From Armatimonadota bacterium (GTDB lineage: Bacteria; Armatimonadota; Fimbriimonadia; Fimbriimonadales; GBS-DC), in assembly GCA_013359125.1 (NCBI GenBank), contig JABWCR010000022.1, forward strand, positions 1-53,196: a stretch of DNA of 53,196 nt, in the 5' to 3' direction. A model generated the notes under the pieces. The model made no database searches. It saw only the letters and a list, made by a program, of their open reading frames with translations, and was not told the DNA's origin. Positions 10,685-52,275 of the stretch are shown here, one piece after another (the first letter of the stretch is position 1; every line of letters starts with the position of its first letter). A program made the translations under genes and the position numbers.

Positions 10685-12055
10685 ATGGGCTTTAGCAAAC
10701 TCTATTTGACGCTGGCAGCCTTAGCAACTATCAGCCTCTGCGGCCATGCGGTATTGACCGAAGAGGAGCCGAACGACGGCCCCGCTCAGGCGCAGACGAT
10801 CGCCCGAGGAGCGACGGGCTGGTCGGACTTTGGCAACTTTCAGTTGGGCCCCCAGGACAACGACCTCGACTGGTTCAAGGTTCAGTTGGAAGCCGGGGAA
10901 CAGATCGTGCTGCAGACGGACGGTTTGTCCTGCGGCGATACCGACACGGTAGTGGCCGTCATCAACCCGGACGGCACGCAGGTAGTGGCCTTTAACGACG
11001 ACGGCGGACCCGGATTTGGCTCGCGCATCGAGCATATCGTTACACAATCTGGACTTTACTACATTGCGGTCGTCGGCTTTCACGACGTGGTCGGACAGGC
11101 CAGCGTCGACTACTATCTGGCCGATCATCCCGAAAACGGATGTTATCGATTTGACATTCTGATTCAAGAAGCGCCGCCGCTGCCCATCGCCATCGAGCTT
11201 CGGGACGGCAATTCGCTCTTCTTCATCGGCCCTAACTTCATATCCGGCAGCAGCATCCGCACGGGCGGGTCGGGCGGCTTGGGCGATCACAAGTCGGGCG
11301 CGCTAGACCACATGTTCCAACATTGGTATTGGTATCGGGCTACCGGCATGAGCCGAGAGTTTGCGATTTCGAACTTTGTGAGCGCCGATGTGGTCTCTCC
11401 GAGAGAAACCAGCGTCTTCTATCGCGAGCCAGAGGGCATCGACTTTGACACCAACTGGCAAATCCGAGAGATGGGCCAAGACCCGGACGGCAACTTCAGA
11501 AACTACGTCCAGATTACGATTCGGGCTATGAACCGAACTGCGCTCCCCACGACTCTCGATCTTTTCTCCTACTCAGATTACGACCTGGACATCACCTCGA
11601 ACGACGATTCGGCCCAGTCGCCCAGGCCCAACCACATTCAGATCGTCGATATTGCCATTGTGAACAAGATTTCCAACAGCCAGCCCTTCGCTTGGCAGAT
11701 CGGTCAATGGCCCGCCATCAGGAACTCTTTGGCCGACGGATTTGTTACGAATCTAACAAACGGCGTCTCTCCATTCGGCCCAGGCGACTTTTCGGGCGCG
11801 ATGCAGCAGCGGATGGCTTTGCAGCCTGGCGCGACCGAGACGACCGTCATTTATCTATGTTTGAACATGGGGCTGCCCGGCGATACGAACGGGGATGCTT
11901 GCGTGGACGATGTTGACTTGGCGCAAGTCTTAAGTTTGTTCGGCCTGTCGGATCAAGATGCAGGGTACGATTTGGAGGCCGACTTCAACCGAGACGGCAT
12001 CATTGACGACACGGACTTAGCGATTGTGTTAGACTTCTTCGGCGTCGGATGTTAA
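10685..12055 (+). CDS. Secreted PPC-domain protein with dockerin-like C terminus, paralog 1
   Basis: The 456-residue product has a signal peptide (residues 1-22), a bacterial pre-peptidase C-terminal (PPC) beta domain (about 23-160; EEEPNDGPAQAQ, DWFKVQLEAGEQI), a middle domain I do not recognise (about 185-390; LDHMFQHWYWYR, LDLFSYSDYDLD, SPFGPGDFSGA), and a dockerin-like module (about 398-456) with two calcium-loop repeats (DTNGDACVDDVD and DFNRDGIIDDTD). It ends in GVGC. No protease or glycosidase active site is visible. It is the first of three tandem paralogs and has a strong ribosome-binding site. Confidence 0.85.
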   Translation: MGFSKLYLTLAALATISLCGHAVLTEEEPNDGPAQAQTIARGATGWSDFGNFQLGPQDNDLDWFKVQLEAGEQIVLQTDGLSCGDTDTVVAVINPDGTQVVAFNDDGGPGFGSRIEHIVTQSGLYYIAVVGFHDVVGQASVDYYLADHPENGCYRFDILIQEAPPLPIAIELRDGNSLFFIGPNFISGSSIRTGGSGGLGDHKSGALDHMFQHWYWYRATGMSREFAISNFVSADVVSPRETSVFYREPEGIDFDTNWQIREMGQDPDGNFRNYVQITIRAMNRTALPTTLDLFSYSDYDLDITSNDDSAQSPRPNHIQIVDIAIVNKISNSQPFAWQIGQWPAIRNSLADGFVTNLTNGVSPFGPGDFSGAMQQRMALQPGATETTVIYLCLNMGLPGDTNGDACVDDVDLAQVLSLFGLSDQDAGYDLEADFNRDGIIDDTDLAIVLDFFGVGC

Positions 12056-12073
12056 TATAAGGAGAACCTTGCG

Positions 12074-13426
12074 GTGATAAAAAGCGGACTGTTGGCCCTT
12101 CTCTTCTCTCTTGTCGCTCTCCCTAGCTTGGCCATTTTGACCGAGCAAGAACCAAACAACAACCCTTCGGAAGCTCAGACGATCACCCCAGTCGGCTCGT
12201 TCTACACCGATTTCGGCGATTTTGCGCTCGATCCGATGGGCGACAGAGACTGGTTCAAGGTGCCGCTTTTGGCAGGGCAGCAGATCACGATCGTTACGGA
12301 CGGTCTCTCCTGCGGAGATACCGACACGGTCGTTTCGATCATCAATCCGGCTGGCGACCGCGTCTTGGCGCTCAACGACGACGGCGGTCCTGGCCTGGGT
12401 TCGCAGACAGTGTTCGCCGCCACCTCTCCGGGAGAGTACTACGTTGCGATCACGGGATTTCACGGCGTTGCCGATCAGGATACGGTCGAGTACTACACCA
12501 GCGACCACTTTGAGGAAGGCTGCTATATCTTTACGATCACGGTCGAGCCGGCGCCGCTCTCCATCAACTTGACCGACGGAGAAACCGGTTTTCGCATGGG
12601 GGTTAACTCAATCTCGCTGCCGAGCAATCGGACAGGCACGGGCGCCGGGTCGGGCGACTACAACAACGGCCTAGACCATTTGTTCCAGCATTGGTATTGG
12701 TATCGCCCGCAGGGAGCAACCCGCGAGTTTGCGCTGACAGCGCTTAGCGGCGGCACGCTGGTGGCGCCCAACGAAGTCGTCCTCACGTACACTGAGCCTG
12801 AGGGGATCACCTTCGATGGCCGTTGGTACTTGAAACAGATGGGCATCGACCCGGTTACGACGCTGCCCAGAAGCTATGTGGAGATCTGGATGCAAGCGAC
12901 CAACACGACCGGTTCGCCCATGTCGCTCGATCTTTTCACCTATACGGACATGGACATGGACAACACGCCCAGCGACGATACGGCCGAATTGGCATCCCCT
13001 ACCTGGATGAGAATCGGCGGCTTCACACGGGCCGGCTTCCATACCAACGCGCCGCCCAATCGATGGCAGATCGGTGCCTATCCGACCATTCGAGGCAATT
13101 TGACCAATACAACGGTCGAGAACCTGACCAACTCGGGCTCGCCTTTTGGCCCGGGAGACTTCACGGGCGCCTTCCAGAACACATGGACCTTAGACCCCGG
13201 AGCGTCGGCAATGGTCGGTTTTGTTCTGGCGCTGAACATGGGGCTTCCGGGCGATGCGAACTTGGACGGTTGCGTAGACGACACCGATCTCGCACTTGTT
13301 TTGGCGCTCTTTGGTCTCTCAACCGACGATGACGACTACGACCCCAACGCAGACTTTAATCTGGATGGCGTTATAGACGATTCCGACTTAGCGATTGTAT
13401 TGGGATTCTTCGGATACGGCTGCTAA
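12074..13426 (+). CDS. Secreted PPC-domain protein with dockerin-like C terminus, paralog 2
   Basis: Same architecture as its neighbours: signal peptide, PPC domain (TEQEPNNNPSEAQ, DWFKVPLLAGQQI), the unknown middle domain (LDHLFQHWYWYRPQ, SPFGPGDFTGAF) and two dockerin-like loops (DANLDGCVDDTD, DFNLDGVIDDSD), ending GYGC. It has 450 residues. The start is a GTG with AAGGAG nine bases upstream, 18 bases after paralog 1, so the two are probably one transcript. Function is unknown; the calcium loops suggest Ca2+-stabilised folding or docking outside the cell. Confidence 0.85.
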   Translation: MIKSGLLALLFSLVALPSLAILTEQEPNNNPSEAQTITPVGSFYTDFGDFALDPMGDRDWFKVPLLAGQQITIVTDGLSCGDTDTVVSIINPAGDRVLALNDDGGPGLGSQTVFAATSPGEYYVAITGFHGVADQDTVEYYTSDHFEEGCYIFTITVEPAPLSINLTDGETGFRMGVNSISLPSNRTGTGAGSGDYNNGLDHLFQHWYWYRPQGATREFALTALSGGTLVAPNEVVLTYTEPEGITFDGRWYLKQMGIDPVTTLPRSYVEIWMQATNTTGSPMSLDLFTYTDMDMDNTPSDDTAELASPTWMRIGGFTRAGFHTNAPPNRWQIGAYPTIRGNLTNTTVENLTNSGSPFGPGDFTGAFQNTWTLDPGASAMVGFVLALNMGLPGDANLDGCVDDTDLALVLALFGLSTDDDDYDPNADFNLDGVIDDSDLAIVLGFFGYGC

Positions 13427-13455
13427 CTTTGCGCTCGGAAGGGTGAAAACCGGGG

Positions 13456-13516
13456 TATACTATTTGTCAACGCGCTGACAAGAGTCCGTCTGCCCTTGCG
13501 CCTAACTTGAGCGCAA
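13456..13516 (+). promoter_or_regulatory. Promoter and structured leader of paralog 3
   Basis: TATACT at 13456-13461 is followed directly by the inverted repeat TTGTCA-N6-TGACAA (13464-13481), which would overlap the transcription start and could be an operator. A second hairpin (TTGCGC 13496-13501, GCGCAA 13511-13516) lies in the leader, ahead of AAAGGAGGT at 13536-13544. I see no good -35 box. Confidence 0.35.
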
Positions 13517-13555
13517 TTGGCAGTCGGCACAGCCGAAAGGAGGTAGTTTCTACTG

Positions 13556-14920
13556 ATGAAAAGATTTAACCGAATTTTGCCGCTTATAGCGGCAAGCCTC
13601 GTCATGAACGGCGCCTTCGCCGTTTTGACCGAGCAAGAGCCCAACGACGATTCTAGTCAAGCACAGGTGATCACCCCGGCCGGTTTCCCATGGACCGATT
13701 CGGGCACTTTCGCCTTTGACTTTGCCGGCGACAACGACTGGTTTAAGATCCCCTTGCAAGCCGGACAGAACATCCGCGTAACGACCAACGTAACGGGCTG
13801 CGGTACCGATACCGTCGTGGCGATCATTAACCCCGCCGCCGACACGGTGCTGGCCTTCAACGACGACTTTAGCGGGCTCAGCTCGCAGGTCTCCTACAAC
13901 GTTACGGCCGATGGCGACTACTACATCGCTGTTACCGGCTACCATGGCGGCGGTCAAAACGTCGTCTCCTACTACACGGGCGTCCACACTAACGCTGGCT
14001 GCTACGGCTTCCAGATCGAACTGCGATCTGCGCCGCCGCAGATGAACCTGCTCGACGGCGCAACCCGTTGGCAGATGAGCGAAGCGGCGATCAGCTCCGC
14101 AGCTAACCGCACCGGCGCAGGCGGTGGTCTGGGCACCTACGACGACGGCCAGGACCATCTCTTCCAGTACTGGCACTGGTATCGAACCAGCGCTTCGACT
14201 CGCGAGCACGCCATGAGCACACTGACAGGCGGAAACAACCCTGCTCAGAACGAAGCTAACCTGACCTACACCGAGCCAGACGGCGTTACGTTTGACACCA
14301 ACTGGGTCTTGCACGAGATGGGCATCGATTCCTTCTCGTTCGCTCCGCGCTCGTACATGATGGTAACCGTAACCGCGACCAACACGACGGTCGATCCAAT
14401 GACGCTGGATCTGTTCAGCTATCTGGACTACGACATGAACGCATCGGTTGGCGGCGACAGCGCCGAGTTGGTTACACCGACTTGGACGCGCATTACCGAC
14501 ATTTCGTTCGGCGGCCACCACGCCAGCAGCCCTCCCAGCCATTGGCAGATCGGCGCCTTTGCAACGGTTCGCAACGTGCTGACCGACGCCTTCGTTTCGA
14601 ACCTGAGCGACTCCGGTTCGCCGTTCGGCCCGGGCGACTACACCGGCGCTTATCAGCACACGATGGGCTTGGGCGGCGGTCTTCTGGGCGCTGGCGCAAG
14701 CGCAAGCGTGTCCTACATCGTCTCGATGAACATGGGTGTGCCCGGCGATGTCGACGCCAATGGTTGCGTGGACGACACCGACTTGGCGACCGTGCTCAGT
14801 CTGTTCGGCCTGACCTCGTTTGACTTCGGCTACGATGAGAACGCCGACTTCAACCGCGACGGCATCATCGACGATACCGACCTGGCCATCGCTCTGCAGT
14901 TCTTCGGATTCGGCTGCTAA
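13556..14920 (+). CDS. Secreted PPC-domain protein with dockerin-like C terminus, paralog 3
   Basis: The 454-residue product repeats the family plan: signal peptide, PPC domain (TEQEPNDDSSQAQ, DWFKIPLQAGQNI), unknown middle domain (QDHLFQYWHWYR, SPFGPGDYTGAY) and two dockerin-like loops (DVDANGCVDDTD, DFNRDGIIDDTD), ending GFGC. Unlike paralogs 1 and 2, codon use is strongly biased: most leucines are CTG and aspartate, tyrosine and asparagine codons mostly end in C. It also has its own leader, an extended AAAGGAGGT site and a strong terminator. These features fit a highly expressed extracellular protein. Its function is unknown. Confidence 0.87.
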   Translation: MKRFNRILPLIAASLVMNGAFAVLTEQEPNDDSSQAQVITPAGFPWTDSGTFAFDFAGDNDWFKIPLQAGQNIRVTTNVTGCGTDTVVAIINPAADTVLAFNDDFSGLSSQVSYNVTADGDYYIAVTGYHGGGQNVVSYYTGVHTNAGCYGFQIELRSAPPQMNLLDGATRWQMSEAAISSAANRTGAGGGLGTYDDGQDHLFQYWHWYRTSASTREHAMSTLTGGNNPAQNEANLTYTEPDGVTFDTNWVLHEMGIDSFSFAPRSYMMVTVTATNTTVDPMTLDLFSYLDYDMNASVGGDSAELVTPTWTRITDISFGGHHASSPPSHWQIGAFATVRNVLTDAFVSNLSDSGSPFGPGDYTGAYQHTMGLGGGLLGAGASASVSYIVSMNMGVPGDVDANGCVDDTDLATVLSLFGLTSFDFGYDENADFNRDGIIDDTDLAIALQFFGFGC

Positions 14921-14946
14921 TAGTCGATCCTTACAGGAAGTAAGCA

Positions 14947-14976
14947 TAGGGCGGACCGTACGGTCCGCCCTATTTT
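14947..14976 (+). terminator. Rho-independent terminator, perfect palindrome
   Basis: A perfect 26-base palindrome (14947-14972, TAGGGCGGACCG and its complement) is followed by TTTTC. It ends the three-paralog cluster. It may also act on the leftward transcript of the TIM-barrel gene, because the stem is symmetric and an AGAAAATA stretch gives Ts on the other strand only weakly. Confidence 0.8.
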
Positions 14977-38835: not shown

Positions 38836-38911
38836 TGGAGGCGCGGAGCGGATTCGAACCGCTGAATAGGGGATTTGCAGTCCCCCCCCTTAACCACTTG
38901 GGTACCGCGCC
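38836..38911 (-). tRNA. tRNA-Cys (GCA), CCA encoded
   Basis: Minus-strand cloverleaf with acceptor GGCGCGG/CCGCGCC, anticodon loop CTGCAAA (anticodon GCA), T-loop TTCGAAT and U73 followed by CCA. U73 is the discriminator base expected for Cys. The run of Gs entering the anticodon stem is long but pairs with TCCCC. Confidence 0.95.
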
Positions 38912-52199: not shown

Positions 52200-52275
52200 T
52201 GGTGGAGCGGAAGGGATTCGAACCCTCGACCTCTAGAGTGCGATTCTAGCGCTCTCCCAGCTGAGCTACCGCCCC
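52200..52275 (-). tRNA. tRNA-Ala (CGC), CCA encoded
   Basis: Minus-strand cloverleaf with acceptor GGGGCGG/CCGCTCC, including the G3-U70 pair that identifies alanine tRNA. The anticodon loop ATCGCAC gives anticodon CGC, the T-loop is TTCGAAT, and A73 is followed by CCA. A TATAAT box on the minus strand lies just upstream. Confidence 0.95.

Follow-up and report, generated by a model that had tools for sequence, protein, structure and literature searches.

A two-loop C-terminal dockerin with paired cysteines, carried by three tandem secreted proteins, is a probable retention tag of an Armatimonadota family

Dockerins are defined by their binding to cohesins. In the cellulosomal type I class (PF00404) the module is carried on secreted proteins, its two ends are clasped head to tail through ring stacking, and residues Ser11 and Thr12 contact the cohesin (PMC4728124). 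A second class, the GC-type dockerin (NF041540, dockerin_GC), already exists in NCBIfam and describes a two-loop C-terminal dockerin with a Gly-Cys end. The "planctosome" is a proposed cohesin/dockerin complex of freshwater Planctomycetes, in which dockerins are found on secreted proteins beyond cellulose degradation (PMC6461901). Among other C-terminal tags, the PEP-CTERM/exosortase system (TIGR02595, PF09721) labels secreted proteins genome-wide with a short motif, a hydrophobic helix and a basic end. The module described here resembles type I dockerins in its two DxNxDG loops with helices, C-terminal site, secreted carriers and probable head-to-tail closure, the GC-type class in its Gly-Cys end, and PEP-CTERM in its genome-wide use, although it is predicted to fold around calcium and has no transmembrane segment.

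The stretch of DNA analysed (the window; 53,196 nucleotides, contig JABWCR010000022.1 of assembly GCA_013359125.1) contains three tandem genes for secreted paralogs with one shared plan (Table 1). This arrangement had been claimed in an earlier note on the same DNA, and was confirmed by the open reading frames, a full-length alignment and Pfam matches; every conserved anchor listed in that note is present in the three-paralog alignment, and the signal peptides support its prediction of secretion. Over their full length, proteins 2 and 3 are 47-52% identical to protein 1 and 55% identical to each other, with a mean column identity of 70% in the three-paralog alignment, and the DNA of the cluster forms a threefold in-register repeat. 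This likeness exceeds chance by far. The intergenic gaps span 18 and 129 bases and a hairpin follows gene 3, thus the three genes may form one transcript. A 465-aa open frame on the minus strand (window 13550-14947) was regarded as a mirror of gene 3 and an effect of composition. The 16S of the genome has an exact match to the EUB338 site, as opposed to its planctomycete variant. Landmarks elsewhere in the window include a RecA gene (1046-2182) and two tRNA genes (38839-38911 and 52203-52275), and the remaining genes scanned are housekeeping, sensor kinase and glycosidase-like genes.

Table 1 Features of the three-gene cluster, in window coordinates.
Feature	Position	Strand	Details
Gene 1	10685..12055	+	ATG start, 456 aa; signal peptide, PPC, middle domain, GC-type dockerin
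PPC domain, gene 1	10865..11074	+	PF04151
Middle domain, gene 1	11171..11872	+	about 234 aa
GC-type dockerin module, gene 1	11876..12052	+	
Loop-1 Cys406 codon, gene 1	11900..11902	+	proposed partner Cys456, 12050-12052; invariant column
Gene 2	12074..13426	+	GTG start, 450 aa; plan as gene 1
PPC domain, gene 2	12242..12457	+	PF04151
Middle domain, gene 2	12551..13243	+	
GC-type dockerin module, gene 2	13247..13423	+	
Loop-1 Cys400 codon, gene 2	13271..13273	+	proposed partner Cys450, 13421-13423
Gene 3	13556..14920	+	ATG start, 454 aa; plan as gene 1
PPC domain, gene 3	13730..13939	+	PF04151
Middle domain, gene 3	14030..14737	+	
GC-type dockerin module, gene 3	14741..14917	+	
Loop-1 Cys404 codon, gene 3	14765..14767	+	proposed partner Cys454, 14915-14917
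Terminator-like hairpin	14946..14973	+	12-bp stem, T-rich tail, directly 3' of gene 3; consensus scan only

The PPC domain scored above the Pfam cut-off in all three proteins (E values of 1.7e-7 to 4.4e-7; 31-32 bits against 25.9), and the genome has no PPC match besides these. Two further cysteines, Cys83 (10931-10933) and Cys153 (11141-11143) of protein 1 with their equivalents in genes 2 and 3, are invariant in the paralogs; sited within and just past the PPC domain, they may form a second disulfide.

Dockerin_1 (PF00404) was matched above the cut-off by the C-terminal modules of genes 1 and 3, and slightly below it by that of gene 2 (21.8 versus 22.9 bits). When 24 modules were scanned, all matched PF00404 (best E value 3.8e-9) and 23 matched NF041540 at E<=1 (best E value 2.2e-8, which by scale would correspond to more than 29 bits). 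Against NF041540 the modules of the window reach 15.6, 14.1 and 9.2 bits, short of its 29-bit cut-off, and one further aligned module scores 25.6 bits, so the module is best described as a variant near that class. All three window proteins end in Gly-Cys, as do most of the 122 C-terminal modules of their own genome, and PEP-CTERM (TIGR02595) gave no match in the three window proteins. Loop positions 1, 3, 5 and 12 are conserved in both repeats, revealing two DxNxDG-type loops as putative Ca sites. The nearest solved structures are cellulosomal dockerins, and an AlphaFold prediction of the module from the three window sequences gave no usable model (pLDDT about 49). A closer likeness of the two repeats within a protein than between proteins, which would be a sign of dual binding, was not seen (0.63 within and 0.61 between proteins).

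The distribution of the module was analysed in the genome of origin (2.82 Mb in 47 contigs), using protein 3 as query and then a profile built from the matching tails. Protein 3 matched about 135 places, nearly all of the matches being confined to its residues 390-454. The profile search found 127 distinct modules, of which 122 lie within 20 aa of a C-terminus and 5 are internal; by a rough estimate, 4-5% of genes are tagged. The passengers are varied and include beta-propellers (SBBP, WD40), GSDH, PQQ and Ig-like domains and other secreted proteins. A signal-peptide-like N-terminus was detected by a simple rule in 106 of 109 complete carriers, and by a stricter rule in 84/96 carriers versus 64/216 other open reading frames at the same loci. 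All 18 genomes of the family searched contain the module, in 13 to more than 100 copies each, while the same threshold gave 54 in the sister family, mostly 0 to 14 in a third family and none in a fourth. The three window proteins are thus tandem-duplicated passengers of a lineage-wide C-terminal tag. Two statements of the earlier note require revision: its proposal that they form an undescribed system of their own is not supported, the tail being common to about 120 secreted proteins, and the absence of a sorting signal is probably incorrect, since the dockerin-like tail is itself a genome-wide tag and most likely the sorting or anchoring module.

Other arrangements of the module were also observed. 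At L081 (C15:44000-61000 of the same genome), paralogous proteins of about 560 aa, encoded in tandem, end in dockerins that have no Cys and that follow a common segment, WLSKR..V.L..GG.AYL. At three loci (L037, L214 and L217) internal dockerins, mostly without the Cys pair, directly precede RHS-like repeats (WxYxYDxxGxL).

Analysis of cysteines in the 122 modules showed that 75 have both a Cys at loop-1 position 7 and a terminal Cys, 31 have neither, 16 have a terminal Cys without the position-7 Cys, and none has the loop Cys alone (Fisher p 1.7e-17, with the modules counted being paralogs). In most of the 16 a substitute Cys is present a few residues ahead of loop 1, at position 6 of the loop or in the linker; the pre-loop version occurs mainly on SBBP propellers (RYC..GD), and one or two modules have no evident partner. 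The sister genomes gave a similar pattern, with both Cys in 50 modules, a terminal Cys without the position-7 Cys in 8, neither in 2 and the loop Cys alone in 0, and the 8 exceptions have a Cys at position 6 (5), upstream (2) or none seen (1). The co-occurrence is as predicted for a disulfide, which the earlier note had suggested as a closure of the module, and we infer that the loop-1 and terminal Cys are bonded. The head-to-tail closure of known type I dockerins makes the geometry of such a bond plausible (PMC4728124). A tree of these short modules, built on 40-odd usable columns, is poorly resolved and offers only one supported independent pair for a phylogeny-corrected test. The tag does not require the putative clasp, since modules with neither Cys exist in the genome (31/122) and 29 of 30 C-terminal dockerins outside the family are without the pair. 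The sole extra-family module with both Cys (L196, in sister-family genome G018) is possibly an independent gain. Some modules at four loci of the own genome (L016, L027, L028 and L083) have paired Cys or a CxxC motif in the inter-loop linker, which suggests further disulfide variants.

A cohesin partner was searched for with PF00963. Neither the own genome nor six other genomes of the family gave a match, even at E<=10, in agreement with the lack of a cohesin reported in the earlier note; a sister-family genome gave one sub-threshold match (E value 0.067). The lack of a cohesin match in the seven family genomes searched distinguishes the family from the planctosome proposal, which includes cohesins, and from type I dockerin systems. 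It differs from the latter also in its non-cellulase passengers, in a load of about 120 copies in 2.8 Mb, and in a closure through a probable disulfide in place of ring stacking. A further difference lies in loop positions 9 and 10, which are Asp in 95-100% of the GC-type modules in both repeats. This acidic pair adjoins the cohesin-contact positions of type I dockerins, suggesting a conserved surface for another partner, although its conservation could instead be structural.

The middle domain provided the main reason for regarding the module as a sorting or anchoring tag, since one extracellular domain travels with either of two tails. PEP-CTERM is the tail of every middle-domain homolog fetched from outside the family (16 of 16); of those fetched from within it, 26 have a GC-dockerin tail and at least four a PEP-CTERM tail. 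The own genome itself encodes 27 PEP-CTERM matches and an exosortase, so that the two tails are co-resident. The GC-dockerin therefore occupies the place of PEP-CTERM in relatives, in the sense of equivalent position and setting only, and it is probably another means of sorting proteins to the surface or anchoring them there, by docking to a non-cohesin receptor. A second domain that occurs with either tail is seen in a 194-aa protein of the same genome (L008; C1:262910-263434), which is 35% like the N-terminal half of gene 3 and has a PEP-CTERM end. In the literature checked, "GC-type dockerin" is not mentioned, and neither "PEP-CTERM" nor "Fimbriimonad" appears together with dockerin. Within that scope, a partner of the GC-type class, the putative clasp, the missing cohesin and the replacement of PEP-CTERM have no earlier description.

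The earlier note had not recognised the middle domain and had proposed a profile search and a structure prediction. No Pfam or NCBIfam family scored over the cut-off when 28 and 21 members were scanned, which upholds that part of the note; the domain is not unique, however, as a profile search of the phylum found homologs in 57 of 291 genomes and 27 genera. By its sequence distribution it is an unnamed, phylum-wide extracellular domain. AlphaFold prediction from the three window paralogs gave a poor model (pLDDT 47.5), with which Foldseek returned ExoMA2, GH94 and GH116 at E values of 0.02-0.5. Profile comparisons gave TIGR01577 (E value 0.0036), Glucodextran_N (PF09137, E value 0.057) and glucodextranase chain 1ug9 (E value 0.11), and hhalign against 1ug9 gave P 0.005, compared with 0.57 for the reversed sequence, on a 1ug9 fragment that was the one chosen by the search. 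A PDB profile search with another alignment (A5) returned T-cell receptor and picornavirus VP1 chains only, at E>=0.01, and these were judged to be chance matches. The beta-supersandwich domain of those glycosidases is not the catalytic one. None of these weak, concordant matches is significant alone; together they hint at a non-catalytic beta-supersandwich like domain N of glucodextranase for the middle domain, with the difference that the window proteins have no attached catalytic domain. They weakly favour this fold over a known adhesin, for proteins to which the earlier note gave a putative structural or adhesive role.

We propose the following mechanism. Tagged proteins would be exported by their N-terminal signal peptide, after which the module would fold with Ca2+ and be closed by oxidation beyond the cytoplasm. 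The Cys of calcium loop 1, or one immediately ahead of that loop, would form a disulfide with the Cys at the extreme C-terminus and lock the ends of the module together, and the surface bearing the acidic pair at loop positions 9-10 would dock to an envelope receptor with no recognisable cohesin. The GC-dockerin would then do for its passengers what PEP-CTERM does for their relatives in neighbouring families, and the window proteins would display a PPC domain and a beta-rich, probably beta-supersandwich, non-catalytic domain at the cell surface. That the disulfide-clasped two-loop dockerin is a general, receptor-docked C-terminal retention tag of the family is a reading in which we have moderate confidence. 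More tentatively, and with a little less than even expectation that it is correct, this cohesin-independent tag may be the general cell-surface sorting system of the family, descended from the Cys-less dockerins of sister families, having taken over PEP-CTERM passengers and docking to a receptor of a novel protein family.

Several other explanations were weighed. The module could be merely a stabilising cap, Ca- and disulfide-locked and partnerless, on proteins that are released into the medium. The lack of any receptor or cohesin match and the persistence of Cys-less versions are consistent with this, but the presence of one conserved module on about 120 unrelated passengers, the conservation in both repeats of an acidic pair that standard Ca ligands do not need, and the replacement of the module by PEP-CTERM in homologs all point to recognition, and we regard such a cap as improbable. 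The terminal Gly-Cys might instead be the substrate of a sortase-like or myxosortase-like enzyme that cleaves or lipidates it, with the dockerin as the recognition handle, in analogy to MYXO-CTERM and GlyGly-CTERM. The precedent here is MYXO-CTERM, whose tails have an invariant Cys and direct the surface sorting of proteins (PMC11980579). The strict C-terminal position of the module would suit an enzyme of this kind, as would the 64 of the 91 terminal Cys that have no residue after them. In the other 27 of the 91, however, 1-4 residues follow the Cys, because of which lipidation or cleavage fits the pattern less well than a disulfide; neither a hydrophobic helix nor a basic end follows the Cys, the terminal Cys co-occurs with the loop Cys or, nearly always otherwise, with a nearby Cys, and about a quarter of the tags have no terminal Cys. 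Processing of this type therefore appears decidedly improbable.

A true cellulosome-like system, in which ordinary type I dockerins bind scaffoldin cohesins, would account for the PF00404 match of every scanned module and for the cellulosomal nature of the nearest solved structures, and a scaffoldin could, with low probability, have escaped notice in the gaps between the 47 contigs. The empty cohesin search of seven family genomes at E<=10, with only the marginal sister-family match, and passengers among which propellers, dehydrogenase-like and Ig-like domains prevail in place of cellulases, make this the least probable explanation. Finally, the middle domain may be the active part of the window proteins, carbohydrate-binding or once catalytic and of glycosidase origin, with the dockerin merely attaching a polysaccharide-handling protein. 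The concordant beta-supersandwich matches (1ug9, Glucodextran_N, TIGR01577 and Foldseek) point in this direction; none is significant singly, the model has a pLDDT of 47.5, and the supersandwich domain is non-catalytic in those enzymes. We consider this unlikely, though with a better prospect than the preceding three; as a statement about the passenger, it can hold together with a retention-tag role of the dockerin module.

Because the two Cys co-occur, the proposed disulfide lends itself to a direct test, and a dockerin that is locked by a disulfide in nature might find use as a stable affinity tag. The lineage combines roughly 120 dockerins per small genome with no recognisable cohesin. If the retention-tag reading is true, a second receptor family for dockerins exists, and a dockerin can stand in for an exosortase-type tag.
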